From Paramacrobiotus metropolitanus (Eukaryota > Tardigrada > Eutardigrada > Parachela > Macrobiotidae), in the NCBI RefSeq assembly GCF_019649055.1, contig NW_026570299.1:602636-666635 (forward strand): a stretch of DNA of 64,000 nt, in the 5' to 3' direction. The notes under the pieces are model-generated. The model worked only from the letters and a program-made list of their open reading frames with translations. It searched no databases and was not told the DNA's origin. Both the position numbers and the translations under genes were made by a program. Positions 1-57,080 of the stretch are shown in pieces. Within the stretch, counting starts at the first letter, position 1; the number at the start of each line of letters is the position of its first letter.

Positions 1-3000
1 AGGTTTGTCCGTTTCCTTTGCCTTTCGCCCATTTCGTGTAGCGACTCTCGGGTGACTCCTCACTACCCGGATTCTCGTTGATGACCTTTCCGATTGATCG
101 GAGTTTGACTTTTCTTCGTCCGATTTTGGCTTTTCTATTCCCTCGAGGTTCGTTAATGGCTTTTCGGTCAACTCGACCGGCGGACCTTCCTCACCGTTAT
201 CGAGTGACCTTTCCCCGTTTTTTGCCTCAGTTACTGGGTTTTGTTGTTCATTCGATATCCTTTCGACCTCCTCTTTAAACTTCTTCCACATTTCTCCTCT
301 GTCCGTTAACATGTGTGCAATGTCGAAGGCCGATTTTGAACTTCCTTCTGTTTCATTCGATCCTCCTTCAGCTGTCTCTTTAGCTGTTTCTTCCTTCTCC
401 GCTTCTTTCATAGTCTCTTTATCCCCTTCATCCTGTTGGACCGTTTCATATCCTTTAGGTCGTTTAGGACCAACAAAAACGCAATTTGCCATCAGCTCTT
501 CAGTGACCCAGTCGTCACTTGGAATCGTTTCATACATGCACCATGTATCCCCGCCTCGTTCTGGGTATTCCACTCCATCTGGATCTGGTGCAAAGGTCAC
601 CTTTTTCTTTTCCATTAACCCCGGTAACCTTCTTTTCCGGGTTATTTGCAATTCTCGCATTTCCTTTGTATCGAATATAGGAATCTCCGCTTCGAATTTC
701 CTCCAGTATTTGTCGAATAACTCCCAGTTATCGTCTTTGAGTGCTTTACAGAATACCACCACCGATTCGTACACCGGTGTACCAAGTCCCGTTGGAAATA
801 TAATTGTTCTCCCTTGACCTTTATACATATGGTTTATGCGGAAGTCCCAGAACAATTCTATTCTCGCTTCTTCCCATAGCTGTACTTCCTCGTTCATTGA
901 GTCGATCTCCCTTTCAAGTTTCCGCTCAGTTGATACCGGGTCAAGAGGATCTTGGATTCCGTTATCCACTCGTTGCTGCCAATGGTTCAGCCATTTTCCT
1001 CTCCCCGTAATGAAGTTTTTCACACATGACAGCCAAGTCCGATATCTGTTCCAGTGATACCGCTCAATGTGTGGCTTCCACATTTCGTTTGTCCGCATGA
1101 TACTTTTCACTTCTTTTTGGACGTGACCTTTAAGATCTGCTAATGCAGCGTTACATCTCGGCCATTCTGAAAGGTCATCTTGGGAGGCGTCTTGGCAGCA
1201 TTCAGTGCATTCCCATTGTGGTTGCACTCTACACGGATCCTCGTAGTAACCGTGTCCGCAGCTCCCCATTCGTTCTTCTGGAGTTAATATCCTCCGATTC
1301 GTTTGCGGTTTGGTGATCTCCTTCTCCTGTGTTGTAGCTTTCTGCTCACATTCGATTTCTGTGCTACTCGCTTCGTCGGAGGATATTTCAATAATCTCTG
1401 TTTCATTGTTCAGTTGGTGACCTTTCAACTGTTCAAGCGCTTTGTTGCGGATTTCGCTCGCGAACATCTGTTCTTCTTCGGCTATTCGTTTCAATATCCG
1501 CAATCTTTCACTCTTTTTATCCTTCCCGACTTTGGCCGTCTTTATTCCCAGTGCCTCTGGTACTGGGATAGGCTTTGCCCACTCCATGCCAGGCACAAGC
1601 GATTGTTTCGCTGCAGCTGTCGCCTCTTTCTGTGTGGCAGCTATCTCTTCAAGTGTTGGTGACCTTTCGTCATTTCCGGTAGTAGATCGAGGTTCGAAAG
1701 ATTTCGGGGTACGCTCTGGTACTTTCTGCAAATCTTTTTCCTCCTTCTCATTTCCGGTAGCAGGTCGTGGTTCGAAAAAGGTCTTGCTGACGTTTTTCGG
1801 ATCCGACTCTGATGCCAAATTCTCAACCGGTGACCTTTCATCTTTCGTTCCCAGTGCCTCTGGTACTGGGATAACTTTTTCAACACATTCTCTTGCTGTG
1901 GCTCCTTGCTCACGGTTATCTGCGATCATACTTCTCCCGTCCGGGAGAAATATGATCGCCTCATCCATGTCTGGCGCGAGCGGTTCCTTTCTCCTTTCGT
2001 TGGCTTTTTTGACATTTCCACTTTCACTTTTCTTCTCCGGTGCCTCTGGTACCGGGATTATCCGTTGGTTGGTCTCGTTCTGCTGCACTCTCGTCATTCC
2101 CGGTGCCTCTGGTACTGGGATGACCTTTTCTCTTCCCTTTTGTGTCAGCATTGTCCGGTTTAGTGTGTTTTCAATCTCCTGTTGAATCATTTGCGGCTGC
2201 TCAAATGGTGACAATTCTTTTTTCGCCCTCATTTCCTTTGCCTTTCCCGGTGCCTCTGGTACTGGGATTAGCGTTTTATTAACCGCTTGAGCGTTTCCCG
2301 TCTGTTTTACAAGTTCGGTGACCTTTCCGACTTGAACTCTGGCGATCGGTTTCGGATCATCTTCTTTCTCTTCTTCGCCTTCGTTATCCATTAATACGAA
2401 CTTCTTCTCTAAGAAGTCGAATCCCAGTAGCACCTGGACGTCATCACATTTCGGTCGGACGTAGAATGAATGTTCGCTAGTCTTTTTCCTTAAGGTCACT
2501 GGTGCTACGCAATAATGCGTCACCATGAATCCTGATGTTCCGCTAATTCCATTTATCTTCACCAGTCTGTCTGGTGGCAATGGGAGCATATGAAGTCCAT
2601 TCTTCTCGCAAAACGGTTTGCTGATCAGCGACGTCTCAGCGCCGGTGTCCAACATTGCGTTGACCTTTATGTCTCCCACTTTCACTTCATGAGTGTACGC
2701 TTCAATTCTTTTAGGCAATTTTCCGTTTTGAATCTTCAATGTGTGGATCTTACATTTCACAGGGATTAACGATACTGGTCCCGGATCCATATCGGGAGGC
2801 ACTTGTCCTTTCGCCGGAGTGCTATGACCTTTCAGTATCTCCCTCAAATTGTCGATCCTGTGTGGCACGTCAGTTCGGACATCATAGAATTTCTGTGGCT
2901 TTTTCTTGTCTGCTTGTTTCTCTGCGGTAATTTTACCACTGGTGACCTTTTCAACGTTCTGCACTTGCGGATTTGCTTTTGTGCTATCCACGTGACCTTT

Positions 3001-4692
3001 AGTCAATTCGTTTATCGTCTCATGGATCAGTTCCTCTTTGCATTTTTCGTTTCGTTTATCTCGCAACTTCTCAATGACTCCACTTGTTATTTGGTCAGCT
3101 CGCTTCAATTCATCTGTTTCGCTATCTTTCATCTCGTTTGGTGACCTTTCATATGTAACCATATCATATCCCTTTTCGGTCATCCATTCAATCACCTTTG
3201 CAGACACTTCATTGTTCGTTTTGGTCGGGTCGATTTGTGAAGACATTCCATCGGTTCGAGCTGGTGACTTGTCATTGGCATCCTTCTGCAGTGCCTGTGA
3301 CAAGTCCCGTGACCTTTCGGCTGCGCTACTCTGTTGCATTTGCGCATTCTCATTTGACCCTCCTTTCTGTTCATTTTGCGCTAAGTCCTGTGACCTTTCA
3401 TTGCGCTTTATAACAAATCCGCCGTTTGACATCTTTTGTATGGGAACTTTTTCTCCATAATTCGACGGTTTGTCTTTCGGTGGTGCATTTCGCGAGTTAT
3501 TCAGGTCAGCTTGTGCATTCTTGTATTCAGTTGCGTTAAATACTGGAGCAAGGTTCGGTGACCTTTTAACTTCTTGCCCGGTAACTAATTCTTCCAGTCG
3601 TTTTCTCTCATGTCGCGTTCGCAATTCTCGCATGTCCCAGTAATCTTCTTGAGACATTCCCACTTTCTGTTTCGCTTTTGGCGTCACGGGTATCCATATC
3701 CCGTGATTCCCATTCGGTCTATAGGCTACTTTTTGCCATATTTCCTTCCGTTGCAGCGTTACTGCATCCACAAGTGAGTCATCGGAGTTCTGCTGTTCCG
3801 GTTCGCCATTCTTCTGCTGCGCTGTTCGCAGTGTCAAGTCTGTTTCTTGACCTTTTAACACGGTGCTTTCACCATGACCCTTAGCGTTCGCCCTCGCTCC
3901 TTGACCTTTCACTTGGACTTTTCCTACGGAAGGTGACCTTTCATCTTTTCTGTTAGTGATATTCTGCTCCATCCATTTTTGCCTTATCAACTTGTCCTCT
4001 GAACAATTCCAGAACTTTGGCTTCGGTTCTCCGTAACAATCGCAATTTGGCCCATTCACCTTATCGTTTTCTTCCAAGTATTTCCGGAATTTCGCATGTT
4101 GCTCATTTACCTCTTGCGCAGTATCGTTCTGCGGTTTCTTCTGGTTCAGCAGCGCCTGTTTAATCTTTGCGTTCCGTTGTGCGCGTCGTTGCGCTAACAC
4201 TTCTTCGCTGCAGTACGGTGACCTTTCATTTTGCTGCGCTGTTCGCAGTGTCGCGCTACCGTCACGACAATTTCCACTCGCAGTACCATTCTGCGGTGAC
4301 CTTTGGTCCCGTTGCGCGTTTCCACTCGCAGTACCATTCTGCGGTGGCCTTTTATCCACTTGAACATTTCCACTCGTAGTGCCATTCTGCGGTGACCTTT
4401 GGTTCTGCTGCTGTGACGGCATTCTTATAGCCGTTTCGATTTCTTTTTGCAATGACGACATCCATATAGCCGTTTCTTGTTGATTATATGACGGCATCCA
4501 TCTAGCCGTTTCCTGTGGTTGCGGCATCCATATAGCCGGTCCACTTTCGTTTTTCGCTGACGGCATCCGTATAGCCGTTGCAGTGGTCACATTCACTGCA
4601 GTACCATTCTGCAGTGGTGACCTTTCCCTTTTATCCGGTGGTTTAGGGTCGGGACGATCAGTAGGCTCACCGGTGCCTACTGATCTTGCCCG
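1..4692 (-). CDS. pol: Pol polyprotein of Gag-Pol LTR retroelement (5' part; runs off the window)
   Basis: This frame opens at 4761 and lies -1 to gag, so it should be translated by ribosomal frameshifting at 4698-4692. It stays open to position 1 with no stop seen. The first ~640 codons are hydrophilic and repeat-rich (recurrent ERSP, KGH and KVT tripeptides). A retropepsin-like domain follows: the active site DTG is encoded at 2649-2641 (LDTGAETSLIS context), and the flap and the second-half LLGFDFL segment are at about 2430-2410. The protease is followed by another ~800 residues with a Cys-rich cluster near 1270-1190 (CGHGYYEDPC, then CTECC) but no recognisable reverse transcriptase, RNase H or integrase. 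Those must lie beyond the left edge or be absent. Seen: frame, protease motif, missing RT. Known: retropepsins carry D-T/S-G. Inferred: LTR-retrotransposon or errantivirus-like element. Confidence 0.8.
1546..2272 (-). repeat. Five dispersed copies of a ~24-bp self-complementary repeat inside pol
   Basis: Near-identical copies of CCAGTGCCTCTGGTACTGG begin at about 1548, 1849, 2037, 2098 and 2246. Each has complementary ends (CCAGT...ACTGG, or CCGGT...ACCGG in one copy with a compensating change). In the first copy checked they encode a Pro-Val-Pro-Glu-Ala type peptide. The hairpin symmetry and the compensatory variation suggest nucleotide-level constraint, which is an inference. Confidence 0.7.
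4271..4414 (-). repeat. 48-bp tandem repeat (3 copies) in pol
   Basis: Units start at 4271, 4319 and 4367. Each encodes an RSPQNGTxSGN-type peptide in the pol frame and contains one copy of the GGTGACCTTT motif (GGTGGCCTTT in the middle unit). This minisatellite expansion may be one route by which the motif multiplied. Confidence 0.8.
4417..4580 (-). repeat. Degenerate ~30-bp repeat (5 copies) in pol
   Basis: Five copies of a GGCATCCATATAGCC-like block recur between 4417 and 4580. On the sense strand each gives a TAIxMP peptide in the pol frame. Spacing is irregular. Confidence 0.65.
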
Positions 4693-4698
4693 TTTCCC
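4656..4698 (-). promoter_or_regulatory. -1 programmed ribosomal frameshift signal (slippery heptamer plus hairpin)
   Basis: On the minus strand GGGAAAC (4698-4692) sits in the correct X-XXY-YYZ register of gag. A 6-nt spacer follows, then a perfect 11-bp stem (arms 4685-4675 and 4666-4656) with an 8-nt loop. The gag stop codon TAG (4679-4677) lies inside the 5' arm. A -1 slip leads straight into the open pol frame. GGGAAAC is an established slippery sequence in several retroviruses. Heptamer, register, spacer and stem are all seen directly; function is inferred. Confidence 0.9.
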
Positions 4699-7600
4699 TG
4701 AACCGGCGCCCCACCTTGTTGCGCGCCCTGCACATTTCCTTGCACATTTCCTTGTCCGTCGTTATTTACCGGGACATAGTTTTGTCCGCCTCCGTTATTC
4801 TGGCCACCACCATTATTTTGGCCACCACCCTGTTGGTAGTTTCCGCCTCCATTTGCACCGCCTCGGTTGCCGCCATTCCAATTTCCGCGGCCGAAGCCTC
4901 TGTTTCTTCCTCTGAAGCCGCCGCGGCCGAAGCCACCACGGCCGTAGCCACTATTCTGGCCACCGCCATTTCCATTATTCCCGTTTCCTTGTTGATTTGG
5001 GAAGTTTGCCCGAGCCTGATACCATTGCGCAATCAGGTCATATCCGTTTGCCACCGCCTGACGCCAGCCACCCGTGTTGCGCAGCCGTTGCCATTCTCTG
5101 AAGGCGAACAGATTTGGGTTCTGATCCGGCGGCGTATTCGCGAACTTGCATCCTTGCGTCTGGTGGTTGCCGTACATGCAGTATTGGCACATCTGTACGC
5201 CGTTTGCCACCCATCCGTCGATCATCTGGAACTTGAATTCTGTTCGTGACCCTTGATTCTGTTGAAAGTTCTGATTTCCTGTGTTTGGCTGGAAGTTGCC
5301 CTGACCTTGACCTTGGAAGTTTCCTTGACCTCCGTTCCAGTTCCCATTTCCGTATCCATTTCCACCGAAGTTGCCATTTGGCATTCCCTGTTGCGGTATC
5401 GCCACGTTCGGTGGTGCCACATTCTGGGGTGCTGGCCTCACTTGAGCCGCCGTTTGTATCGCCGCTACCATTGCGTACGTTATGGGTTGTCCCGTCTGAC
5501 TGTCGATAAAGGTCACCTTTTCTGTGACCTCTCTGACCGGAGTCTCCACGCGGTATTCAACCTGCTGTTGGACTGGCGCAGCCGTCATTCTCTGTTGTGG
5601 CACGTTTTCAACTTGGCCTTGGCGGATGGTTGCGTATTCCTGATTACGTTGACCTTTTGGCGCCTTGTACTTTTCTTCTCCCGTTGCCCAGTGTCGGAAA
5701 AAGTCCTTCACGTCGGTTGGCGTCCTGCACTTTTGTGTACGCAATGCCTTGTAGAGTTCGTTATCCACTCTACATCCTTCAATTAAGAATCCCACTGCTT
5801 GTTTTTCTGTAATGATCCTTTTTGCTTTGAACCGCATTATCGCCTGATAATATTGGTCGAGTGATTCTTTTCCCAGTTCAAATTTCCTTGCATAGGCCTC
5901 GCGTAAGCCTAAGACTTCTTCATCCCGGTCACCGTATTCATCTTTGAATTTATCCATCCATTCTGTTACGGAATACTCGATTCCATCCTCTGATGCGATG
6001 TCTTTTTCACTTTCAAACCAGGTTTTGGCAGGACCTTTCACCGCACTGGCTATCTCGATCATAATTTGGTCATCGGTAAGCTGGTAAGTTCTCTGCGTAT
6101 CTTTTACCAGTCTTGTCCAGCCATTCACTGTGTCGCGACTGCCATCAAAGGTCACGAGTGGCGTTTTTCGAGCCATGGAGTTAAGCGCCTTTGCTAATGC
6201 AAATCCCGATTGCGCTTTCTGATCCTCTTCCTCTTCGCCACTTTCGTCGTCGTTTGTATTTCGCCTCTCCTTTGCGTAGCGGGACTTCCTTGGGCGCTCT
6301 TGCCGACTAGATTGTTCGTCCCGTCGTCCTTCGTTGACAAAGACGTTCGTTTCAATGTGCGGGGGAAACTGTGAGGGATCGCCATGACTCGGATAACCTC
6401 CTGATGGTGGCTCTTTGTCATCTTTGCCCTTGTCACCGTTCGTTTCATTTTTAACATTTCCTTTGCCGGTACCAGTTCGTAAGGGCATTTCAAAATGGAA
6501 GCTTTTGCCCGTGCCCGTTTCATGCGCCTTGCTGTAACTGGGCGGGGGAGACTCCACTGTTGCTGACTTGGCTTCGTATCGCAACAGCTGTTCATCTTTG
6601 TGTTTGTTTGAGATGTTGAGCGCTTTATTCTCATCTTCTAGTCGTTTATTCCTTAGCTGAAGCTCCTCTCTCTCAATCCGCAAATCGGAGTTTTCCTGTT
6701 TGACCTTCTGCATATGGGCATGCAGTTTGAAAGTTTCCTGCTGGGTGACCTTTTCGTTATCTTGTTCCATCTTTTTGATGTGTTCGACCAACTGGGTCAC
6801 ATCTCCTTCGAGTTTCTGATACTCCCCAGCGGCTGATCTCAGCTGATTTTTGGTTGTAATCAACTCGTCGTCCTTCGCTAGTGCTGTAGTGGTCATCTCG
6901 ACGAGTTCAGTATTCAACCTCGCGATTTCCTCACTCTTTTGGTCAAGCTGCTGTTGCCATTCTGTATCCTTCAGCTCTAATGCTGTAACCATTGTGTCGA
7001 GCCGGAGTGCTTGAGTTTGCCACTTAAGGCCTTCCTTAGTGATCTTTTGAATTTCTGCCGTGACCTTTTCGTTTTCGTCGTTGGCCTCTTTAATCTCTTT
7101 TGCCAATCTTTCTCCTTCTGTTGCTGTGATGTTTCTCGCCTCGCGCATTGCTTTAATTGCCTCGTTGCGTAGCTTTTCAGCTTCGTCGGCGCGTTCCTGG
7201 TGACCTTTTGATTCACGCTGCAGAGTACCGATAGCTTCGTCTCTGAGCTTCAAGTCGTTTCTGAGTTTGAACGTCTCTGTCGCCAGCGCTGTCAATCGCT
7301 TCGTGACCTCTGTGAAATTGGTCGCGTACTCGTCTCTTCTAGCTTCAGCTTCGGTGACCTTTTGACGCAATTGGTCACACTCGTCCTTCAGTTCGGCTAA
7401 GTGCCGTGACCTTTCTGCTGACTCCTCGGACATGCTCTCGTTCAACTCGTTGACCGCAAGATGACCTTCCATTTCTCTGTCATCTACCATCTTCAAGTAT
7501 TCTTCTGCCATTTCTCTTTGTTTTTCATATTTCACCTTCCATTCATCTGCCATGTTTTCCAAATAACCCCGTTGCTGTTCCATCTCGAATAATCGGGTTT

Positions 7601-8420
7601 CAAGTGATACCAATCTCTCTTGGTATTCCTGTTTTCTCTTAACCATCTGTCCTTCCTTGGCGTCAAGTTCACTTTCCAAATCTTGGACGCGTCTCCTCAG
7701 TGTCAGCGTAGGGCTACTTGGTGAAGGTGGTCGTACGTTTATGACTTTTCCAGTCTGTGTCCGCTCGATGAGGTGTTCAGGTATTTCTTTAAAAGGTGTC
7801 ATCCCTTCAGCACGGTCGGCTTGTCTCATCGCAGACTGGAAGGACATATTCATCGTTGTTTCGTCATCCGTAAAATATGATTCATTCGATTCGTCTGAGA
7901 CCATTGGAGTCGCCCAAAGGTCATCGCTTGCAGTCTTATCGTTCAGTGAAAGGTCATCCAATCCGAGTTCAGCCAGTTCCTCTTCGGTGACCTTTGTGTT
8001 TCCCTCCATTTGAGCCAGGTTCACATTTTTATCCTGCTCATTCATTCCACTGATGGTAGCATCCAATTGGGATGCTACCACTGCTTCCGCTGTCTTTTCT
8101 GTGGTTCTGTCCTCCCCAGTGACCTTTGTCTGGTTCATCGGTTCACTTCCCGCCACGAGCGCGGGGGTTTGCTTTCCATCTCCGCTGGAGCTCTCTTCGT
8201 TCTCTGTAGCTCCCAGCGCCACTTTGTATGTATTATCACTGCCTTTGCTGTCCTTCCTTGCAAAGGTCACCGCTGCTCGGGTCTGTCTGTCATGTCCGAC
8301 TGGACGCGCGAGCGACTTGTATTCTTTTTTATAAGGATCCACTGCGCCTTGCTGTGATCCTCGGGAGCTCCTGCTTCCCTGGCTGCTGTTAGATGTTGGT
8401 TCCGCGTTGTCTTTGTCCAT
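4677..8420 (-). CDS. gag: Gag polyprotein of LTR retroelement (1247 aa)
   Basis: Structural protein that would form the element's virus-like particle and bind its RNA. ATG at 8420. Layout: Ser/Thr-rich N-terminus; long coiled coil at about residues 240-615 (heptad-rich Glu/Lys/Gln, many Leu); a capsid-like Retrotrans_gag domain at about 750-925 (VTFDGSRDTVNGW opening, then AxxW and a helical segment); CCHC zinc knuckle C-X2-C-X4-H-X4-C at about 1078-1091; and a Gly/Asn/Arg-rich RGG tail from about 1143 to the stop. Gags of Ty3-type elements are usually 300-500 aa, so this one is much longer, mainly because of the coiled coil. The last 26 codons overlap the open pol frame and carry the frameshift signal. 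The frame is uninterrupted, so the copy may be young. Confidence 0.9.
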   Translation of the reverse strand: MDKDNAEPTSNSSQGSRSSRGSQQGAVDPYKKEYKSLARPVGHDRQTRAAVTFARKDSKGSDNTYKVALGATENEESSSGDGKQTPALVAGSEPMNQTKVTGEDRTTEKTAEAVVASQLDATISGMNEQDKNVNLAQMEGNTKVTEEELAELGLDDLSLNDKTASDDLWATPMVSDESNESYFTDDETTMNMSFQSAMRQADRAEGMTPFKEIPEHLIERTQTGKVINVRPPSPSSPTLTLRRRVQDLESELDAKEGQMVKRKQEYQERLVSLETRLFEMEQQRGYLENMADEWKVKYEKQREMAEEYLKMVDDREMEGHLAVNELNESMSEESAERSRHLAELKDECDQLRQKVTEAEARRDEYATNFTEVTKRLTALATETFKLRNDLKLRDEAIGTLQRESKGHQERADEAEKLRNEAIKAMREARNITATEGERLAKEIKEANDENEKVTAEIQKITKEGLKWQTQALRLDTMVTALELKDTEWQQQLDQKSEEIARLNTELVEMTTTALAKDDELITTKNQLRSAAGEYQKLEGDVTQLVEHIKKMEQDNEKVTQQETFKLHAHMQKVKQENSDLRIEREELQLRNKRLEDENKALNISNKHKDEQLLRYEAKSATVESPPPSYSKAHETGTGKSFHFEMPLRTGTGKGNVKNETNGDKGKDDKEPPSGGYPSHGDPSQFPPHIETNVFVNEGRRDEQSSRQERPRKSRYAKERRNTNDDESGEEEEDQKAQSGFALAKALNSMARKTPLVTFDGSRDTVNGWTRLVKDTQRTYQLTDDQIMIEIASAVKGPAKTWFESEKDIASEDGIEYSVTEWMDKFKDEYGDRDEEVLGLREAYARKFELGKESLDQYYQAIMRFKAKRIITEKQAVGFLIEGCRVDNELYKALRTQKCRTPTDVKDFFRHWATGEEKYKAPKGQRNQEYATIRQGQVENVPQQRMTAAPVQQQVEYRVETPVREVTEKVTFIDSQTGQPITYAMVAAIQTAAQVRPAPQNVAPPNVAIPQQGMPNGNFGGNGYGNGNWNGGQGNFQGQGQGNFQPNTGNQNFQQNQGSRTEFKFQMIDGWVANGVQMCQYCMYGNHQTQGCKFANTPPDQNPNLFAFREWQRLRNTGGWRQAVANGYDLIAQWYQARANFPNQQGNGNNGNGGGQNSGYGRGGFGRGGFRGRNRGFGRGNWNGGNRGGANGGGNYQQGGGQNNGGGQNNGGGQNYVPVNNDGQGNVQGNVQGAQQGGAPVQGNGQDQ

Positions 8421-8494
8421 GTTGATCGGATAACTTTGACGCTCCTGCCAATTGTTCTCACAAACGCGTTATTGTATGGTTTATTCAATTGACC

Positions 8495-8962
8495 TAAAGG
8501 TCACTTTGTACTTTCGAAATCTTTCTAAGTCCCTGTTAAAGGTCACTTTTCGATTGAAAAATTTCGGCTAAGTCCCGTTTAAAGGTCACTTTTTTGATAA
8601 AAAGTTCGAGAGATTTGCCCTAAAGGTCACTTTCCAGACAAAACTTCGAAACCGTTCTTACAGTTCAAAACACGTTTACAAATAAAATCCTACAGCTGCT
8701 AATATCGCTGTACTACTATTCACTTCAATTGCACTTCGATAAAGGTCACCGTTTGTCGCTTTCAGATCGTAAAGGTCACTTAAATAGGTCAATTTAGTCA
8801 GTTCCAACTTTTTAGTAAAGGTCACTTTCCGAACTCAAAGGTCAACTTCTCAACTCGTTTTAAGTTAAAAGGTCACTTTCCAGCTCAATTAAATCAAAGG
8901 TCACTTTTCCTTTGTTTCAACTCAAAAGGTCACTTCTCATCTCAATTCAAGTTTAAAGGTCA
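8495..8962 (+). repeat. Array of 12 AAAGGTCAC motifs in the retroelement leader
   Basis: AAAGGTCA followed mostly by CTT occurs near 8496, 8538, 8581, 8622, 8741, 8771, 8817, 8837 (AAAGGTCAA), 8868, 8896, 8925 and 8954 on the plus strand. On the element's sense strand (minus) these read GTGACCTTT. This is exactly complementary to the motif orientation that dominates in gag and pol. AGGTCA is also the nuclear-receptor half-site. The repeats are separated by unrelated A/T-rich sequence of 20-110 bp, so this is not a simple tandem satellite. Confidence 0.9.
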
Positions 8963-9264: not shown

Positions 9265-10440
9265 CCGTAATTAATAACGGTTTTTCTACCTGTTAACCGT
9301 CCGTCCGTTCCACGTTCCACAGGGAAAATGATCCGAATGATCCAGATTCTTCTTCCAACTCCGCTCCCGCGTCGCCGCTGTTCCGTAGCGTGCCTCGCGC
9401 TATTAGTCTAGTACTGTGCCGGCTGTGCCGTAGCAACAGTAGTGCTCTACAACCAGTTTGGAGGAGTCTGATCTGTCTTTTCCCGTGCGCCCCTTTCGGC
9501 GCTTCGCCTCTTGTGGCCCACGGCTTAGGCTTCGCTGAAGCCTTGCCGAGTATCAGTGACACCAGTGTAGGTCTTCGCTGAAGACTCTACACCGAGGAAC
9601 ACTGACGACTGAACTCTTGAACTCTTTCACAGCTGAGGAAACAGCATAGGTCTTCGCTGAAGACACTGTACCGAAAACCAAAGCTGGTAATCCACGTCCG
9701 ATGAGACAATTTCACCGCTTGTGGTGTGCACGTTGCTGTCAAACAGACCTGCGCCTTGCTGGTCGCGGATAACGTCAAATAACAGGCTAACTTTGCCTGA
9801 CACAATTCAAATCAAATCAATCAATTCAGAGAACCGCTGTCGGCTCTGCTACCATCTAATGCTAGATCCAGAATGGATCCAGAGACAGAGACAGAAACGG
9901 GATCTATCCTGTGGGTGAGCGATACGACCTGGATCGCGAGCTATGCGGAAACACAAAACGTCGCACCGTAATCGCTGACTTTTTATAATATTGAAAGTCT
10001 GGAGACCAGAAATCAACAAGTGATCGGCACAGCTCGATCGTAAATCGTAGAACCAATTCAACAGTGTGTAACACTGTGCAGCACGTGCTAAGCCGCGCCC
10101 ACTAACACAACTCAAGCTAGCCAATCAGAGCGAGACACGTCACAGACCGTAATCCGAAGGCGTAGCGCCTAGCGCCACGGGCGTGAACGCTAGTGAGCCT
10201 CGTCTCACACACTGATATTGTCGCTCGTTACGACACTGACATTCTGTAGTACGGATTCTCAACAATTCTGACATACATGTCAACATTGTCCGCGCATACG
10301 AAGCAACCCATCCGAACCATTTTATGGCTCCGCGTTGTATCGTACACCGTGGTATGCTTGCAAGGTGAAACCTTATGCGTTGAAATAATGGTTTGTTTTT
10401 GACTTGTGTAAACAGTTTTTTAATGAATCGTCCTTGACAG
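9265..10440. other. Probable LTR/U3 or repeat sequence, no supported gene
   Basis: Short open frames on both strands lack protein-like composition. Three hairpin units lie at 9527-9664 (annotated separately), and several CCAAT and GC-rich segments are present. This could be the U3 of the retroelement, but with only one LTR in view the boundary cannot be set. Confidence 0.35.
9527..9664. repeat. Three hairpin units with a common GCT loop
   Basis: Perfect short inverted repeats with the same 3-nt loop: 9527-9543 (7-bp stem), 9571-9585 (6-bp) and 9650-9664 (6-bp). The core TTCGCTGAAG is invariant, while the outer pair changes on both arms (GGCTTC/GAAGCC against GTCTTC/GAAGAC), i.e. compensatory variation. 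Each is followed within about 10 nt by a CCGA-containing tail. Confidence 0.7.
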
Positions 10441-36261: not shown

Positions 36262-36419
36262 TTAAGCTAAACTGCGCCGAGAATTTTTGGTTACTTGCAT
36301 AAAATTTTCACTACGCGAGTTATAAAAGCCGTTGTCTTAGTAAATTTGACGATTGCCTGCAAAAAAACAGAAACTGTCGTGTTGGCAGTCCTGAAAATCA
36401 TCTGTCGGGATTAAGCAAC

Positions 36420-37558
36420 ATGAACGCTACTTTCAACAACAGCATGACCAACGCTTCCATTGGAGTTCCTCTGCCACCACAGTTTGGAGTTCCTCTGCCA
36501 TCCGACCACTGACATTCTTCATCCTGCAAATTGTTCTGAATGTTTCTATGCTGCTCTTTCTCATCGGACACCAAACGCTGCGCACCGGATTTAGCGTGTA
36601 CCTCATTTTTCTCCTCTCTTCCAACGTATGCTACGCTTTTGGGCAATACCCTATGGACTTTCTGCAGGCACTGTACGGACGTTGGTGGATGTCCAGAGCA
36701 GCCTGCAGCTTCTATTTATACAATTGCTGGGTCGTTGTCGCTGTGCCGATGCATATGCACGTTCTCATCACCATTAATCGCCTCTGGGCGCTGACCTTTC
36801 CTTTGGCGTATCGCACTCTGCACAACACTAAAGTGGCGTGAGTGGGGGGTCTGCTTTCTTTAGTCATGGTAGCGTATGTGCATATTGTGTGCTTTCCGAT
36901 GTTTGTTATCAATGAGCTCTATTACCGGCCAACACCGGAAACGCTTGGTTGCTATTTAAATATGGATAAGCAAAAGCTGTACTCCAAAATAGTAAACATC
37001 GTTGTATTTAATTTGCCCAATGAAGCCTTTGTTTTTTCTTATCCGTACATTCTGTACAAATATCTTAATGTACGGCGAATGAGAAATTCAATTGGAGCAT
37101 CGCCAGTTCTGGCTGAAGGATCTACTAACCAAACAAATTTGAAGAAGGTGCGTTGTAGTTTCCTCGTCGATATATAGCTTTGCTTTGTGGGTTTTGTGGC
37201 GCGTAGTTGAAACTAATCTTTTTAGGAGGTTTTTATACAGAACTTAACCGTATCAACCGCTGCGAGTCAGAAGATTGATGGTGGCACTCGACCTTTTCTG
37301 CTCTTAACGCTGCTCACATGCAGTATAGCCCTATGCTGGACGCCTGTTCAAGTGTACTGGATGCTGGACAGCTTCATGGACGTCTCCGGATTTACCCAGT
37401 TTCATAAAATCACGATGGTGTTGTATCCGGTACAGCCAGTTTTGGATCCAATAATTTTTGCGCTGTCTTTAAGCAGTTTTCGAACGGCTGTGATACGGTT
37501 TTGGAGAAAGACTGCAGTGTCTAATGGACATGCTCAGGAAATTCTTCAGTTAAGATGA
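36420..37558 (+). pseudogene. GPCR family B pseudogene (two exons)
   Basis: Exon 1 36420-37147, exon 2 37241-37558; splice sites intact (AAG|GTGCGT, TATACAG|AAC). Damage: the ATG frame ends in a TGA at the start of TM1 because the N-terminal part is one base out of register, next to an internal 24-bp duplication (36461-36508). An in-frame TGA at 36839-36841 replaces the Cys that opens TM4. The rest reads normally: INRLWALTFPLAYR after TM3, CWTPVQVYW in TM6, LDPIIFALSLSSFR in TM7. Recently lost. Confidence 0.85.
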
Positions 37559-39047: not shown

Positions 39048-42000
39048 TCAGACTTCCTCTCGGTACCATTTGAAAACCGCCACCAATAGTTCATAGCCGA
39101 CAGCCATAGTAATGCCGCTCAGTAGCAATAAAACCGCGGGCAACTGCGCGTGTTCCGGAAGTGCGAATGACACCACCGCGATGGGAAGATACCTCCAAAA
39201 GTATAAGCGCTGAAACGCCAGCATCCAGAAGCCTTGTCGTTCTGCCCACAAAGCACAGATGCAGAATCGCTGATCAGCCGTCGATTCGGCGCTCTTTTTA
39301 ACACTCGGAACGTCGGCGCTTGCCCGTTCGCTTGAAGAATTATTATTGTCTTGGAATTCTTGATGTGCGCTGCTAAAAAAAATAAAAAAATGAAATTACT
39401 ACGGTAGTGATTCTAGAGTAATTGCATTTGTTTGCCAGACATTGCTGAAAAGCTTCACTAGCAACGGTTAAACAATCTGAAGTTTTGTTAAGGGGAGACC
39501 TGATACAAATAAGGTGGTTTTGGTAGTTTGCTTTAATGAAGAGTAATTCCAAGTGTTGTTAACATTGTAATTGTAGCTTCTTATATACTCAGTAAAACAG
39601 TCAGATTGACTAAACTTCTGAGTAACAACTTCGCCTTTAAGGCCGGTGTATGACAAAGGGGCTGGGTGCCAACATGAGTAACAGACATTAGTAACGGTTA
39701 CACTCATTTATTCTAACACCCCCCTTCACCCAGTCCGCGGTCATTCAGTCCATGCATCCCGAGCAGTCCGGTGATGGATTTGACCTTGATCCCTCCGAGC
39801 GCCTTCGTCAGCATGTCCGATGGATTTTGATCCGTTGGAATATAGCTCACCTCGATCGATCCGGCTTTCGTTTCCTGGCGGATTCGGTGGTAGCGAATTC
39901 CGACATGCTTGGTCCGCTTATGGAATTCGGGATCCTTCGACAAGGCAATCGCGCCTTGATTATCCACATTCATCTGGGTGGCCTTTGTCATGTCCACTCC
40001 GAGCGCATCCAGAAACGGTCTGCTCCACTCATTCTGCTTAACTGCCTCGGCCAGTGCCATGTATTCGGCTTCCGTCGCAGAGAACGCTGTCACTTTTTGC
40101 AGCTGGGAACTCCAGGCAACAGGTCCGCCTCCCAGGGTGAATACATATCCGGAGGTTGATTTCCGCTCATCCGGATCACCTCCCCAATCCGAGTCACAAT
40201 ATCCGGTCAACTCCATACTTGCTGTACCAAACGTCAAAGCCATAGTTAATGTGCCTTTTAAATAGCGCATTACCCGTTTAACAGCTGTCCAGTGGTTGAT
40301 TCCCGGTTTCTTTTCAAACGACGCCAGGCGGTTCACTGCGTAAGTGATATCCGGTCGTGATATGGAAGAGATGTAGATGAGGCAGCCAATCGCTTCCATG
40401 TATGGACAGCTATATGGCTCTTCTCCATCCTCAGATTTCATCAGCTTGACATTCGGATCCAGAGGAGACGTATAAGTTTTACTCTCCTGTAGTCCAAATC
40501 GCTGCAGCATGCGATTGATGTATCCCTGCTGGTTGATGCTGATGGTGCCGATCTTCCTGTTCCGACCGATCTCCATGCCCACATAACAGTCTGGCTCATG
40601 AACCGTCAGTTCGAAATCTTCTTTAAGTTTCTTCAGGAAATCATCCACCACTTTTCGCGTCGCACCACATACCAGCCCATCATCAACATACAGACACAGT
40701 ACCATGTACTCCTTACTCGTACCTTTCTTCACGTAGACGCATGGATCTTCACTGCATGCAACAAATCCATGTCCAGTTAGTACTGCGTTCACTCGCTCGT
40801 TCCACAATCTTGGACTTTGCTTCAAGCCATATATTGAACGCTTCAACCGGCATACACGTCCACTACCGTCGTCGTACGTTGCCGGCTGGTCCATATATAT
40901 GACTTTATCCAAGTCACCATTCAGAAATGCAGTCTTCACGTCAAACTGCACCATTTCCAGGTTGCGTGCAGCAGCCACCGCTAACACACAGCGCACCGAT
41001 TCGTGTCGTACGACGGGGGCAAAGGTTTCGCCATAGTCGATGCCTTGCGCTTGTGAGTAGCCGCATGCCACAAGCCGCGCTTTCCGCTTATCCAGCTCGC
41101 CATCTGGAAGTAGTTTCGATTTAAAAACCCACTTACACTTCACAGTGCGCCGGTCTGCTGGTAGCTGTTCCAAAGTCCAAGTGCCCGTTTTATACAGCGC
41201 TTCAATTTCAGCATCCATTGCTTCCTTCCACAGGTGCCCGTCTGCTCTCGACAGCGCATCCTGAACATCAACTGGATCTGCGGCCGTGGCCATTGCGCTC
41301 AACGCAGCTCCCTTGGCTCTGGTTTCCATGGGATGCGGAAGAGGCGGATCCTTCACCAGATTCTTTGATCCCGGTGGTCGCCCTGGCCGTCGCTTCTCAA
41401 CTGCTGCCTTTTCTACAGCAGTCTCGCTTCCCAGCTCATCCTCCGCATCTTCCCACTCTTCGTCATCATCCCGCTCGCTCTCATCCCCTTTGAGGCAGGA
41501 TACCGTAGAGCAACTTCGGGAATCTCGTCGCCACCATCCGCGACAACCACATCTCCAACCCGCTCCACCTTTTTCGTTTCCCGGTTGAACACCCGGAACA
41601 CTTTCGTGGTATCCCAATCGTAACCTACAAACAGTGTTTTTACCGACTTGGGATCTAGCTTCCGTCTCTGATCCTCCGGAACTTTCACGTAGGCAGTTGA
41701 TCCGAACACCCGCAGGTGGTCAACTGTTGGCTTCCGGCGGTGCCACAATTCATACGGGGTAATTTCCAGCTTTCCCCGATTTGGCACAATGTTCCGTAGG
41801 TAGGCAGCGGTTGAGATGGCTTCATTCCACAGAAGATTTTTCTCACTTTTTGTGATGTCCGCATCGTAGAGCAGCGTTCGCGCACTGTCACAGAGCGTGC
41901 GGTTTTCCCGTTCTGCCATGCCGTTTGCTTGCTTCACGTACGCCGGACTTCTTTCGTGCTTTATCCTCTGTTCTGAAACAGCGTTTCAACCTCCTGGTTG

Positions 42001-45000
42001 ATGTATTCAGTCCCGTTGTCCGTGCGAATCGACAACACCTTTCTACCAGTTTCCTTTCTGCTGTGATAATCAACTCTTTGAATGCATTACCCACAGAGTG
42101 CTTACTTGGTAGTGTTCGAACCATTCTGTATCCGCTGCTTTCATCTTTGAACGTCAAGAGATATCGATGTCCTTCCCAGGAGTCTGCGCCCATATGACAC
42201 ACATCACTATGGAACCTCTCACCTGATAGACATTCCCTTCCAGCACTGCTGTCATGGGTGTTAGCCGTTTGCTTTCCCACATGACACGCTTCACAGTCAC
42301 CGCGCTTCGAGGTCACCACCTCCAGGCCGTCCACCACCTTGTTGCGGACCATGGAGTCGACCAATGCGTCGCTGACGTGTCCAAGTCGTTTGTGCCAAAT
42401 TCCCACAGGCTGCGCCTTCAGCGCACCTCCACTTGGCGGCACCACGCGTATGAAAGGTCGGTACGTTGTACCGTCACCTCGCACTCCACCCAGGAACGGC
42501 TTGCCATCTCTGCTGATTGTCATCTTGCCTTTAGCGTGGGAAAATGCGAATCCTTCTCGCTCCAAGGTCACCGTGGACAGCAGCGTAGTGTCACATGCAT
42601 CGGGTGCATAGAAGACATTCTTCCAATCCACTTCCCGCCACTGTTTCCCATCGACGGACACTTCGACGTCAATCGTGCCAATATGGGTAGCCTTGATGCT
42701 CTGATTGTTGCCAACCACGAACGATTTGGGAACATCTAGCTTAACTAGAGTTTTAAACCAGTTGTATTTATTCGTGATATGGTCACTTGCCCCACTATCG
42801 GCGATGATCACATCCTCACTTCCGGTCGCATGCATGGCTGATACCATCATCGATTCCTTCTTGTAACCGTGACCGGACTTGTCCTGTCGCTTGTTGGTGA
42901 CTGTTTCCCCTTTTGGCTTTGACCAGCAATCGGCCTCTTTATGGCCCGCTTTGCCGCAGTTGTGGCAGCTTCCGGTGAACTTCTTCTTCGCTCCAGTTGG
43001 TAGTCGCTTACCTTTTGCGTACAGCGACTCACCGGCTGGACTGGACCCGCTTCCTTCTCCCTGTCCCTTCATCATCTTTTCCGCTAGGAGCAGCTTTTCC
43101 CGGAACTTGGACATCTCAGGATTAGGACCGGCCATCATGTTCCACGACGACACAAATGACGCGTACTGTTTGGGCAAGCTGGCCAGCGTCTTACCGATCA
43201 ACCAGGTGTCGGTAACCTTTTCCGGCTTCCCGCACGCGTCTATCTTCGCCGCTAGAACATACAATGATGCCATGAATGTATTTGCGTCGTCTACCTCCTT
43301 CCACTTGACTTCGAAAAATTCGGTCATCGCCGACATCAAGTCGTTGTCAGTCTTCGGCTCTTTCAGCTCCTGGATCCTCTTCAGAATCTCAGCGGACGTC
43401 TTGCAGTCCCGACACTGACTGAAGGTGGTATCATCCACTGTTGCGCGCAAAATACTTCTGGCTTTTCCATCGGCAGCTATCCACTTCAGGTGGTGCTCAT
43501 GCGCCGCTTTATCCGTTGCCGAATCTATGGGCATCGTCAGTGTCCCATTCACAACAGACCACAAGGACTCACCAGTCAACACATCCTCCACCTGTACCCT
43601 CCATCGCGAGTAATTGGAGTCGTTTAACTCGGTGACCTTAATACTCTTCAACTGCGCCATTGTATTATCCACAACACAATGATAAAACAAACTTCACACA
43701 AACACTGCTTAGAGACAAGCAGGTCTCATAATCTGATACAATTAAGGTGGTTTTGGTAGTTTGCTTTAATGAAGAGTAATTCCAAGTGTTGTTAACATTG
43801 TAATTGTAGCTTCTTATATACTCAGTAAAACAGTCAGATTGACTAAACTTCTGAGTAACAACTTCGCCTTTAAGGCCGGTGTATGACAAAGGGGCTGGGT
43901 GCCAACATGAGTAACAGACATTAGTAACGGTTACACTCATTTATTCTAACAAGACCACATTTTCTAGAATTTTACCTGCTCCGGGCGTGGTCGGCACCGG
44001 CACGCAAAAGGGTTGCCAAACCAGAAAGAAGCACTTTGCAGGAAAACGCTATGCACATTATTGCCGCACTCGTGTAGGGCAACGTGGCCAACAGTAGAAT
44101 AGTTTCCAGCCACTGCGTGCACAGGCGTCCTGCCCCTGGCGAAAAAGTGGGCGAGAAGAGCGAGAGCAGAGCAGGATTAGTGGTCTCTGAGAGGGGATAA
44201 TGCAGGTCCATCCAGTACGACAGCGTGGCCGTGATTTGATTCAGTCCCTAGAGACGCATTGCGCACGATTAATATTGTCGCAAGTGCAATCAGCCAATCA
44301 CCTATATTACAAATTTTAATTGCAAATGTATTAGAACAGAGTTACACACCGTTGCGGAATTGTTGCAGTTTGAGAAACATTCGGTGCAGTTTGCGTAGGA
44401 CCAGTAGCTTTCGTTTGCGCACAATTGCGCTTGTTGTTCGCGGGCTACGAGCGCGCTCGCCCAACGAAGAGAAGCCGGCACATAAAAAAGCAGATTGCCG
44501 GCGTTGATCATGACGCAGTAGCAGCCAGGAAGGAAAAATAGGATGATTAAAATCAGCAGCTGAATTTGTGCTGACGGTGATGACAAAGATGTTGGTGAGT
44601 TCTTCGTCGTATCCGGTGAAGTCACGATGAATTCTTTTCCCGTTATTAAGCTATTAGTACCATTACCATGCCATTTGCTGAGATGTTGCGATAATTATTA
44701 TAAACCCACGAGTATCAGTAAAACACAAGCTCAAAAATGCAAGTTTTGCTTTTAATATTAGCGCAACAATTATTATATGCGTAATGTTGAAGTTTTACCC
44801 CATGTTTTCGGAAAGACTTGTGAAATAACTGGCCTTTGCCCACAGTCCCCAGACTCGTCCAGTGCAGTAAACAGCCAGCAAGCAAAATACGACGACACAG
44901 GCGGGAAACACAGCGTCCTTCCCAAATGTGCGGGCGATCAAGTACACCGCCGATTCCCCGGCAATAACCCAAAACAGAACGCAGATGATTAGCCAGAAGG

Positions 45001-47999: not shown

Positions 48000-50474
48000 A
48001 TGATGTTTCAGGCTTTACTCGTATATTTCGTACTACTATCGAAGTATGCCGCAGCACAGTCGTACAGCAATATCAACGGCGGAAACTCCACAAAATGTCG
48101 TTGTCTTCCGGGTGATTCATGTTGGCCGAGTGATGCAGACTGGAATGCGCTCAATACGAGTCTAGCCGGTCGTCTGGTCATTCCACATCCAACCGGTACA
48201 GCAACTCTCCGTCAAGTTTATTAAACCAATGACATAGAACTGATTAATTTTGCTAGCTTATCCGTGTTACGCTGGTGCCGGCTTTAATTCCCGTGATTGC
48301 CAGCAAATCCAGAAATACTACAACCGTCCCGGCTTCCTGATCACCAAACCCGGCAGCATGCAGAACTTCAACTGGGAAGATCTGGGCGCGCAGCGCTGCA
48401 CGCTGGAAAGCGGTAACGAATGGGGCGTGGTGTGTCAAAGTGGTCGGACGCCAGCGTACGCTGTGGATGCGCACAGTCCGGAGGATATCCAGAGAGCAAT
48501 GAGTTTTGCCAGTAAGCACAATCTGCGGGTGGTGGTGAAAACGACTGGACACGATTATCTCGGGCGCAGCACGGCACCCGGAGCGCTGCTAATCTGGCTT
48601 CACAATTTCGAAGGACAACTGGAGACGAAGACGTCATTTACACTTAGTGGCTGCGATGCCAGCAGCCAGAGTGTCGGCCCTGTTATTACGGTTGCGGGTG
48701 GAAAAACATGGGATGATGTGTATCCAAAGGTAATAACTGCCTGTTTATAGCCCTTAATTAAAGGCCGCACATAAGAAACATTAAAAAATTAATGAAGTGT
48801 TTACTCGGAAATCGGAATGCGAAATCTTTATACGCGCTTAAAGAGAATTTCATATCAAGGACACGATTTAGCAATAAAAAAATCATGTGGTAAGCTGGCC
48901 AGTAGGCTAGTGAAGCAGCAAATTTATCCGCTTCGAATCATTAAACAGTATTTAACAGAAAAACATCCAGTCACACAAATCGCCAGCAGTGTGAACAGAG
49001 AAGAGAATATTCGCGCAATTCGCCTTAAAACGGTGCATCATTTTCCAATTTGTTATCTTACATTGTATAGACATATTTGTTCAGGTTGAGCAAGACTTTA
49101 ACGGAAAGTACGCCATCGTCGCCGGCAACTGTTTCGACATCGGCGCAGCCGGTGGATACATTCTCGGCGGCGGTCACAGCATCATCTCGCCGTCGTTCGG
49201 TCTGGCCGTGGACAGTGTCCTGGAGATGAAAATCGTCACCGTCGACGGGCAACTTCTAACGGCCAACGCGTGCCAGAACACGGACCTTTTCTGGGCGCTG
49301 CGCGGGGGAGGAGGCGGAACCTATGGTGTCCTCACGTCCGTCACGTACCAGCTGCATTCCGTTCCCAACGGCTTCACCAGTTATTCCATCCAGATTCTGG
49401 CGGCCAATAAGACTGGTGATTTGAATCCCAAGCAGTTGGAGGATGTGTTGGAGGTCCTGTCCCGGCGTACCGCTGATCTGGATGCGGTCGGATGGGGCGG
49501 TTATTATTATTTTAACGCAGCATTTGGGTTTAGTTTGATGTGGATTGTGCCGGCCGATTGGCCGAATGCACTGGTGCCGGTTGAAGCGATAAAGGACGAA
49601 TTGGTGGCGATGCAGGCGTCTTCGGGTTTTCTGGTCGGACCGTTTGCGAATGTCGGCGGGTTTGTCCAGCATTTTAACGGAGTGTCGGTACGCATGAATC
49701 CCGAAGAGTATTTGATTCGTTTCTGCACAGAAAACCGTTCAGTTTTTGACTCTATTCTGTAAAACCGTTAATTAACTTACTGATGTTTAGTTTATTTCGA
49801 AGTCTATCAGTTCTGCCAAATCAGTTCGAACTGACTGAATTTTTTAGTATCAAAAAACCATATTGAGCGGCAAAACGTTGATACCTGACGGCTGTTTCTT
49901 ACGTTTCGTTTAACAGGACTGGCGTTCGTGGGCGAACACCGTTGGTGTGTACGATGAGAGCCTATCCCCTGGAATCCGTACGACTCTCGGCACTCGTCTC
50001 ATCCCCGCAGCTGCGCTCAACCAATCGCGTAGCGTCGCCCAGAACATCATTGCGGCCGCGGCGAAGACCAACTTCCTGTTTGGCTTTGGCATTCTCCACG
50101 TATCCGGCAACGGCGTCCGCAGTAAGGATCCTCAATCGATAGAGACGTCGGTGACCCTGGCGTGGCGCAAAGCAGCCTGGCATGCCATTCTGGCGGTGGG
50201 GTGGCTGCCGACCACAACCGAGGAGGACGTGGCTCTTTTAAAGGGCATGCTGGAAAGCGGAGCGCAAGTGTGGCGCGATGCGTACCCGGATTCCGGAGCG
50301 TATTTTAATGAAGCCTCCACAACGGAGCCGCATTGGCAACAAGCCTTCTGGGGGAAGAATTACGACCGTTTGCTGCAGATTAAAAAGACGGTGGACCCAA
50401 GTGGAATGCTGGTGTGCAGCCAATGCGTTGGCAGTGAAGCGTGGGATCCGACAGGAAATTGTCGGCTACAGTAA
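48000..50474 (+). CDS. Secreted FAD-linked oxidoreductase, berberine-bridge/MreA-like (four exons, 609 aa)
   Basis: Flavin oxidase of the PCMH-type FAD-binding plus BBE family; substrate unknown (sugars, alcohols or alkaloids in relatives). Exons 48000-48195, 48257-48729, 49085-49687 and 49917-50474 join in frame (1830 nt); introns are GT-AG, the first 61 bp. Signal peptide [22 protein letters not shown] domain: [18 protein letters not shown] with the probable flavin-linking His at about residue 164; [30 protein letters not shown] with a Cys at about 238 placed like the second flavin link of bicovalent enzymes; [20 protein letters not shown]-terminal BBE domain: YFNEA ... [24 protein letters not shown], then CVGSEAWD. 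These motifs look fungal rather than animal, so horizontal acquisition followed by intron gain is plausible. Confidence 0.85.
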
Positions 50475-56125: not shown

Positions 56126-57080
56126 TCAGTGTTTCCTGTAGAACCATGAACGGCATGTCTGCAGTATGAACGCTCTGAAAATAGTCAAAGACATGGCGAA
56201 AATGATAGGATCCATTACAGCCTGCATGGCGAACAACACCGTTGTCAAAGTTTCCACGGTCGGAAATTCTGTCACCGTCGTGAAGCAGGCGATGGTCCAG
56301 TAGACTTCATCCGGGGTCCAGCAGATCAGCACGCTGAAGGTCAACAGCGTTAGCACCACGAATGGACGTAGATTTCTCGGAGTGGACGTAGTCGACTGCT
56401 ACAAAAAAAGCAGTTTCTGTGTGCTTTGCTTCCTTAGCATTTTTAAAATGGTCAACTTTACTAATACTACAGTAATAATAATTATTATGTACAAGTACCA
56501 AAACTATCTTGCTGTTGATTGCTGGTAGTAATCAATATTCAAAGTACCACGAGTATGTGAGTGCGCGAAGAGAAAGGTTTGCAAGGGACGTGCAAAAAAT
56601 CTTGCTTTGACACACTCTTCCTTAGTAACAACAATAATTACCGAAGATTGGCCCCGCATGTCGAAGGTGGACACGGCTCTGGCGACTGCCATTGTAGATC
56701 GATTCAGCGCCAACGTCGATCCGTTCATAATTTTTCGCCGTTTTTTGTGCTTGTACAGAAGAAAAGGATAAGCAAACACAATAAAAGCGATTTGCAGATC
56801 GTAGCCGATTAGCGCGACGAGCGTACTGTATAAATTCTGCTCTTTTATATTCATCCGACACCCGTGCTCTGATGCCGACTGATGATATTCTCCTGTAGTA
56901 CAGGATGTTGAAAGATAGCAGGGCTATGATGTAGACTGTGAAGGTTGAACGCAGCGCTGGACGGAAGATGAAAACGCACAGCATTCCGACATTAAGACAC
57001 AGCTGTAGAATGCATAAGGTCAAACGACCGATAGCGCCGTATGTCCATGTTTGAGTGTCAACGGCGGTTATGTTTGCCAT
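56126..57080 (-). pseudogene. GPCR family B pseudogene with internal deletion
   Basis: Exon 1 57080-56642, exon 2 56398-56126, splice sites intact. Compared with the paralogue at 52700-53890, about 257 bp of exon 1 are missing: late TM2 through TM4 (after FNILYY). Because 257 is not a multiple of three, the sequence after the junction is frameshifted. TM5 and exon 2 (CWTPDEVYW, MDPIIFAMSLTIFR) still read well in their own frames. Dead by a single deletion. Confidence 0.85.

Follow-up and report, generated by a model that had tools for sequence, protein, structure and literature searches.

A tardigrade Ty3/gypsy-type retrotransposon filled with one exact 8-base word, a possible site in double-stranded DNA

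A giant LTR retrotransposon dense in one 8-mer

We report on a 64,000-nucleotide stretch of the genome of the tardigrade Paramacrobiotus metropolitanus (assembly GCF_019649055.1, contig NW_026570299.1, C79:602636-666635; hereafter the window), whose minus strand holds the 5' portion of a long terminal repeat (LTR) retrotransposon of the Ty3/gypsy type in which a single word, AAAGGTCA, is the commonest 8-mer. The internal region of this element spans 23,949 bases without a nested element, and the whole measures about 24.7 kb including both LTRs. Words are called sense when AAAGGTCA reads along the element's coding strand and reverse when TGACCTTT does. The features of the element in the window are as follows.

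9855..10209, minus strand: 5' LTR, 355 bases, 0 copies of the word
9843..9854, minus strand: primer-binding-site-like TGGTAGCAGAGC, directly after the LTR
8496..8962, minus strand: leader array, 12 exact words in one orientation
4677..8420, minus strand: gag open reading frame (ORF), 1247 amino acids, 8 sense and 5 reverse words
1..4596, minus strand: protease/pol ORF, continuing beyond the window, 23 sense and 2 reverse words

The element has paired LTRs, a primer-binding site and the domain order protease, reverse transcriptase (RT), RNase H, integrase, which place it among Ty3/gypsy elements. Its 5' LTR is 99.7% identical over 356 columns to a second LTR on the same strand (L042:9192-9547, that is C79:583827-584182), the target duplication is 4 bases long (AGTG), and TGGTAGCAGAGC is presumably the complement of the initiator-Met tRNA 3' end. 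Gag carries a single CX2CX4HX4C knuckle at 5148-5189. Pfam assigns PF13975 to residues 637-730 of the pol ORF (33.6 bits), and RT, RNase H and integrase lie in the adjoining piece outside the window (L010), giving the order PF13975, PF00078, PF17919/PF17917, PF17921, PF00665. Several further ORFs without assigned function lie 3' of the integrase. Rfam and tRNA scans of the window returned no matches, and all 22 Gag-related proteins returned by protein search come from P. metropolitanus. The pol frame between protease and RT (window 1153-2265, minus strand) also holds five PVPEA-type peptide repeats at 1552-2265 and, at 1153-1260, a Cys-rich block that may bind metal.

An exact recount of AAAGGTCA gave 32 sense and 7 reverse copies in window 1-8495, and 0 and 12 in the leader (8495-8962), the same numbers as the hand count of the initial annotation. 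One of the 32 sense copies falls between the gag and pol ORFs, and the leader copies are mostly in the form AAAGTGACCTTT. Their start positions are listed here.

Minus strand, sense AAAGGTCA (TGACCTTT on the plus strand), first 11 of 32: 82, 205, 815, 1124, 1418, 1660, 1831, 2121, 2319, 2661, 2825
Minus strand, sense AAAGGTCA, next 12 of 32: 2943, 2993, 3142, 3310, 3391, 3559, 3848, 3902, 3934, 4219, 4297, 4393
Minus strand, sense AAAGGTCA, last 9 of 32: 4618, 5650, 6746, 7061, 7201, 7355, 7407, 7988, 8120 (span ends at 8127)
Plus strand, 7 reverse coding copies (AAAGGTCA on the plus strand): 592, 1170, 5508, 6147, 7916, 7949, 8262 (span 592..8269)
Minus strand, 12 leader copies (AAAGGTCA on the plus strand, TGACCTTT in sense): 8496, 8538, 8581, 8622, 8741, 8771, 8817, 8837, 8868, 8896, 8925, 8955

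Over the whole element the word occurs 94 times with both strands summed. The stretch from gag through the last ORF has 64 sense and 11 reverse copies; the leader has 12, all of them reverse; the 3' portion, which lacks long ORFs, has 1 sense and 6 reverse; and the LTR has none. The portions from gag to the last ORF thus hold 75 of the 94 words, including the one between gag and pol. Beyond position 10209, outside the element, the window has four copies on both strands together (18826, 36792, 53816 and 63232). Genome-wide, over the 169.8-Mb assembly, AAAGGTCAC is found 19,414 times and its back-to-front spelling 3,461 times (all families counted together), and a double-word pattern occurs 569 times against 1. 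The single IMG/VR match of that pattern (L001) has two words only and looks like chance. A 4.4-kb gypsy-like element nested inside the main one (L011:759-5116, with 153-base LTRs that are 100% identical) carries four AAAGGTCA, all on its ORF strand and two of them the same LTR position, which may reflect chance or another family that bears the word.

The word is exact and exceeds the codon-shuffled expectation

The word is read in all three frames, as had been claimed from the peptides KGH, KVT and ERS: sense copies fall in frames 0, 1 and 2 at 2, 1 and 5 places in gag and at 7, 12 and 4 places in pol, translating respectively as KGH or KGQ, as ERS, QRS or KRS, and as KVT or similar. Reverse coding copies translate as VTF or DDL, in two frames only because TGA is a stop in the third. 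We compared these counts with 1000 synonymous codon shuffles of the gag and pol ORFs. The 8 sense and 5 reverse words of gag stand against shuffle means of 0.94 and 0.15 (maxima 5 and 3), and the 23 and 2 of pol against 2.33 and 0.05 (maxima 7 and 2), the two reverse copies of pol, taken alone, only equalling the shuffle maximum. A codon-preserving shuffle, named beforehand as a possible refutation, failed to yield similar counts.

The proposed unit of 8 to 9 bases stands as an 8-mer and falls as a strict 9-mer, position 9 being any base but G. Among the 51 copies in the window this position is C in 39, A in 6, T in 6 and G in none, and it is G in 0 of 303 core gag sites (described below; they come from related copies and so do not count as independent). 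The two ORFs show no enrichment of words that differ from AAAGGTCAC by one base at positions 1-8 (7 sense and 1 reverse, against about 8 sense in shuffles), nor of variants at positions 1-3 (3 sense and 1 reverse, about 2 expected together). Sense AGGTCA in the two ORFs belongs to AAAGGTCA in 31 of 38 cases, and CAAGGTCAC is found there 0 times. A generic nuclear-receptor half-site was rejected, enrichment being confined to the full 8-mer, as were receptor-dimer sites, the closest coding copies starting 32 bases apart with no dimer spacing. Even spacing of the words was also rejected: the coefficient of variation is 0.81 against 0.96 for uniform placement, and 13% of simulations lie lower.

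Nucleotide-level selection across genomic gag copies

The genome holds at least 42 gag matches at at least 37 places, at 74-100% identity. We extracted 30 loci and codon-aligned 29 of them (L026, incomplete, was left out), with a mean pairwise amino-acid identity of 81%. Synonymous conservation was measured in gag; these copies are related and their comparisons not independent, which placebo windows and a per-site count correct in part.

The alignment contains 26 distinct word sites, of which 12, the core sites, are exact in 20 or more of the 29 copies. Four of the five reverse sites of the window gag are exact in 24-28 of the 29 copies (26, 28, 27 and 24), and the fifth in 10. In comparisons that preserve the residue, third bases inside the word agree in 95.0% of cases (25,453/26,788) versus 63.3% for the same codons outside it, and conservation falls at position 10. 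The effect holds in both orientations (sense 0.957 versus 0.673 outside; reverse 0.936 versus 0.550 outside), and TGACCTTT and AAAGGTCA rank first and second for exact conservation among 14 well-sampled 8-mers. Site by site, 20 of 22 testable sites lie above expectation, the two below occurring in 6 copies each, while 4 sites offer too few comparisons. The mean excess over the 12 core sites is 0.338 against 0.074 for placebo (standard deviation [SD] 0.038), and 0 of 300 placebo sets reach 0.338. Residues differ to fit the word as well: KGH in 16 copies stands against YDH, QDH or QNH in 13, and VTF in 10 against KAF in 15.

In gag, selection on the word acts on nucleotides, on either strand and on the exact sequence, with turnover of sites among copies. 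The initial annotation had argued that selection works on nucleotides and not on protein, which the shuffles, the third-base conservation and the placebo windows bear out; and where it had looked to other genomic copies for a refutation, the 29 gag copies did not supply one. Some words do lie in short tandem repeats (D2, 4270-4411), as an origin by chance, codon bias or repeated peptides would have it, but the codon shuffles, the presence of the word in three frames and on both strands, and its synonymous conservation contradict that origin and leave it with next to no probability.

The leader array and its orientation

Most of the leader consists of degenerate units of 29-30 bases in tandem. 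Leader arrays assembled from similar units are present in 29 of 29 aligned copies, with 7-17 words each (the longest, up to 17 copies, in L028) and 0 in the other orientation, and tandem duplication could account for this single orientation. In coding sequence, exact 9-mers number 23 sense and 4 reverse over the two ORFs, while 9-mers with three mismatches, reflecting a purine-rich coding background, number 127 and 30; the coding bias resembles this background, so that no strand-specific function is needed. TGACCTTT is moreover excluded from one frame by its TGA stop. The flip of orientation between leader and coding sequence is real, but it is probably not a code. From the helical phasing of leader sites no conclusion was drawn, since their spacings are homologous between copies.

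Readings at the RNA level

The leader is complementary to most coding copies, and the initial annotation had suggested that many RNA contacts form between leader GUGACCUUU and coding AAAGGUCAC and serve to condense or package the genome. Such pairing would also want both orientations conserved in coding sequence, as they are. Yet the bases beyond the word pair no more than composition predicts, and mostly less. Over 384 leader-by-coding combinations, pairing is possible at positions 10, 11 and 12 in 64, 51 and 71 (0.17, 0.13 and 0.18) versus 0.36 expected; position 0 is pairable in 96 (0.25), again below 0.36, and positions -1 and -2 in 152 and 136 (0.40 and 0.35), as expected. Position 9, itself part of the word, is pairable in 302 of 384. 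Nor are changes that keep a wobble pair favoured overall: single changes at core sites keep wobble in 18 cases (8 position types) and break the pair in 17 (8 types), with 17 over 5 types against 10 over 3 at sense sites, and 1 over 3 against 7 over 5 at reverse sites. Neither complementarity past the word nor wobble tolerance is found, and we regard the pairing model, which does not agree with these data, as quite improbable.

Alternatively, the word could serve in the transcript as a signal for packaging or export that an RNA-binding protein, for example Gag with its CCHC knuckle, reads at many points. Words spread densely over the full length of the transcript would favour such multivalent binding, and the noncoding copies share an orientation. 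Coding words, though, are strongly conserved both ways, and to a reader of single strands the two orientations would be unlike words; we consider such a reader unlikely.

Relatives with and without the word

We also compared three gags of a sister clade (L046, L047 and L048) and two distant gags (L044 and L045). In the distant subfamily, whose blocks are 35-48% (about 40%) identical to the window gag, AAAGGTCA is again the top 8-mer in both copies (20 in L044 and 16 in L045, in 4 kb), and the leader is again reverse. Few of its coding sites are homologous to window sites: 4 of 15 in L044 and 2 of 9 in L045, with one unmapped. The extra-ORF region of this subfamily (L050) carries 18 sense words and 1 reverse in 5 kb.

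The sister clade (represented by P0010, gag about 56% identical) has 1, 1 and 0 words in the gags of L046, L047 and L048, and 0 copies in 5 kb of extra ORFs (L049). KVT occurs 0 times in its proteins P0010 and P0018 versus 2-7 times in the other 20 gag relatives. The leaders of L047 and L048 hold 9 AACGATCT each and three relic TGACCTTT, such relics being present in 2 of 3 sister leaders. Genome-wide, the double pattern of AACGATCT occurs 77 times versus 10 for a control, several times just upstream of sister-clade gag copies. Within sister gag, this new word, as CGATCTC/GAGATCG, is again prominent, being the top 7-mer in L047 (9 versus 1.3) and L048 (8 versus 1.1), while L046 has AGCTC 26 times versus 10.7. 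The loss of AAAGGTCA in the sister-clade copies read is firm; a functional new word may have taken its place there, and the idea of word dialects is weak in this clade. Inferring the sister word from protein alone gave no answer, for even the AAAGGTCA of the window gag ranked only 37th of all 8-mers.

That a clade without the word shares the genome mildly favours a reader travelling with the element. The extra ORFs C-G are 35-55% identical between the window element and L049 and 23-43% between the window element and L050. L050 aligns in addition with the final part of the integrase ORF (56% over 79 columns). The comparison with L049 and L050 left pieces H, I and J (L011:5689-7876) unmatched.

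A proposed double-stranded DNA site and its possible reader

Selection that is exact, sharp-edged, strand-blind, dense and spread over three frames would fit a site in double-stranded DNA better than RNA pairing. We propose that AAAGGTCA followed by C, A or T may be recognized in double-stranded DNA by a sequence-specific protein, and that the element multiplied this site to about 94 copies over about 24 kb. Under this proposal the copies arose in arrays, in the leader and towards the 3' end, and through point changes across the genes, to which the protein sequence gives way. What mattered to the reader would be the density of words: a lone word that arose by chance in the host would weigh little, and the whole element would be covered. 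By analogy with the VANC proteins of VANDAL transposons (see below), the effect may be to keep the chromatin of the integrated copy open or active against silencing. We infer the double-stranded target, the protein reader, the importance of density and the action on chromatin, and only favour a reader encoded by the element itself. For the model as a whole, a dense word serving as a DNA-protein site that acts on the element's chromatin, we estimate a probability of roughly one half. The initial annotation's alternative to RNA pairing was a DNA-binding site built on the AGGTCA half-site: the DNA-binding site agrees with conservation that is exact, sharp-edged and, in coding sequence, strand-blind, while the generic half-site drops out, only the full 8-mer being enriched.

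Several results weigh against this proposal. Pfam found no known sequence-specific DNA-binding domain in 12 ORF pieces of the element. The best candidate for a reader is a linker-histone-like match (PF00538, E 1.3e-4 for the whole protein) at the end of the extra ORF L011:8438-10000 (C79:593073-594635, minus strand), which scores 22.5 bits against a cut-off of 22.4 with no single stretch passing. This stretch is modelled at low confidence as helix-helix-helix-strand-strand and is 50% conserved in the sister clade; a PDB sequence search with that end of the ORF gave weak matches of other families, the best (0.0025) being an Arc-derived protein, with no single stretch passing. Another extra ORF after the integrase (L010:787-1785, C79:595422-596420, minus strand) has eight relatives at 60-95% identity and a good-confidence model over about residues 31-220 (predicted local distance difference test, pLDDT, of 81-92 by block), for which a search against solved structures found nothing at E 0.001. 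Word number per gag varies about as much as independent sites would give (SD 1.74 versus 1.78). Strand-blind binding does not require that the 3' array share the leader's orientation in 6 of 7 words, nor does it demand that noncoding copies lie 18 versus 1 in one orientation. The extra ORFs C-G track overall relatedness and not the word. As for the sister clade, gag shows no more than a modest enrichment of its new words; the top words of the L049 extra ORFs differ from them, and the gag words are not enriched there; and synonymous conservation of GAGATCG between L047 and L048 is weak (31/37, 0.838, versus 0.788), that of AGCTC over three copies being better (99/124, 0.798, versus 0.653).

A host protein could also be the reader. 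The 8-mer AAAGGTCA is identical to the NGFI-B response element (NBRE), the monomer site of NR4A receptors, and the element might recruit a monomer-binding nuclear receptor of this type so that the words act together as an enhancer or insulator of high site density. Here the AAA extension must be complete, and CAAGGTCAC, the form expected for FTZ-F1 or ERR, is missing from the two ORFs. Matches to the nuclear-receptor DNA-binding domain (zf-C4) number 63 in the genome, many of them single exons. Six of the 63 stretches were compared and none is NR4A-like; they presumably resemble FTZ-F1, COUP-TF, ERR (two) and tailless, with one left without a label. Nor would a fixed host factor alone account for the disappearance of the word from a sister clade that shares the genome. 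We hold a host receptor to be possible, if doubtful.

A drive in copying, in which word-rich templates would be favoured in strand transfer, recombination or integration through self-recognition much as with the DNA uptake words of bacteria, would likewise produce an exact word in three frames and on both strands, with few near-misses and turnover of sites. The leader arrays, however, point to a regulatory region, and to our knowledge no retrotransposition step reads such a word; we rate this drive as very improbable.

Returning to a double-stranded DNA site, we tentatively suggest that an element-encoded protein reads the word across the entire integrated copy, genes as well as noncoding parts, and that reader and word change together between lineages, from AAAGGTCA to AACGATCT/GAGATCG-like and AGCTC-like words, giving the giant retroelements of one genome orthogonal dialects of self-recognition. 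On the same speculative footing, VANC anti-silencing may have here an equivalent among the class I elements of animals, in which protein is reshaped to a DNA code. If a DNA reader is indeed at work, the protein-coding genes of a mobile element double as a high-density regulatory address to which amino acids yield, and caution is called for with codon usage in mobile elements, which a DNA reader can then shape in place of translation. The gag copies at at least 37 places, a distant subfamily that bears the word and a nearer one that does not would then form a natural experiment on recognition between element and host, and the escape of an animal retroelement from silencing would become testable by simple binding assays.

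Known designs compared

In the study by Hosaka et al. (2017; PMC5735166), VANC of the Arabidopsis VANDAL elements is an element-encoded protein that binds the 9-base word YAGTATTAY, single-base changes cutting the binding. According to the same study, VANDAL words form same-orientation arrays in tandem repeats that vary between copies, their density is called important, a related VANDAL family has other words (AGTTGTCC/AGTTGTAC), and the words lie mainly in noncoding DNA and are absent from the coding probes tested (PMC5735166). The likeness is a dense, exact, family-specific word in same-orientation noncoding arrays, which is found here in 29 of 29 leaders. The designs differ in that VANDAL words are mainly noncoding, whereas 75 of 94 words here lie in the portions from gag to the last ORF, and in that VANDAL is a plant DNA transposon with VANC as its known reader, whereas this is an animal LTR element whose reader is only postulated. 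The VANC domains DUF1985 and DUF287 have no Pfam match in the 12 ORF pieces. VANC/VANDAL is the closest design known to us.

The insulator of Drosophila gypsy consists of about a dozen Su(Hw) sites in the 5' leader between primer-binding site and gag, read by a host zinc-finger protein. Here too a leader array lies downstream of the primer-binding site (12 copies at 8496-8962, primer-binding site at 9843-9854, minus strand), but the word differs from the Su(Hw) core site, and gag and pol of gypsy are not known to us to be filled in this way. The NBRE offers an identical 8-mer, with the A extension required here; we know of no retroelement with tens of NBRE in its genes. Bacterial DNA uptake sequences are exact 9-10-mers in all frames and on both strands of coding DNA, with a recognition bias and lineage dialects; they are genome-wide in bacteria and read by uptake machinery, whereas the present word marks one element family. 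Among the papers listed by our searches of the openly licensed literature, a scope outside which most subscription papers fall, there was nothing like a word-filled retroelement and no paper on P. metropolitanus together with a retrotransposon; nor did the excerpts of PMC11071193 and PMC13195034 describe such a retroelement.

Neighbouring features

Elsewhere in the window, inspection of the ORF list by eye pointed to a separate Ty1/copia-like element at 39713-43693 on the minus strand, with 0 AAAGGTCA on either strand, and to split ORFs at 48244-50474 that resemble a berberine-bridge/FAD-linked oxidase. A related group of putative seven-helix receptor ORFs, likewise recognized by eye, lies at 36395-36841, 53183-54007, 56504-57209, 59179-59853 and 62778-63710.

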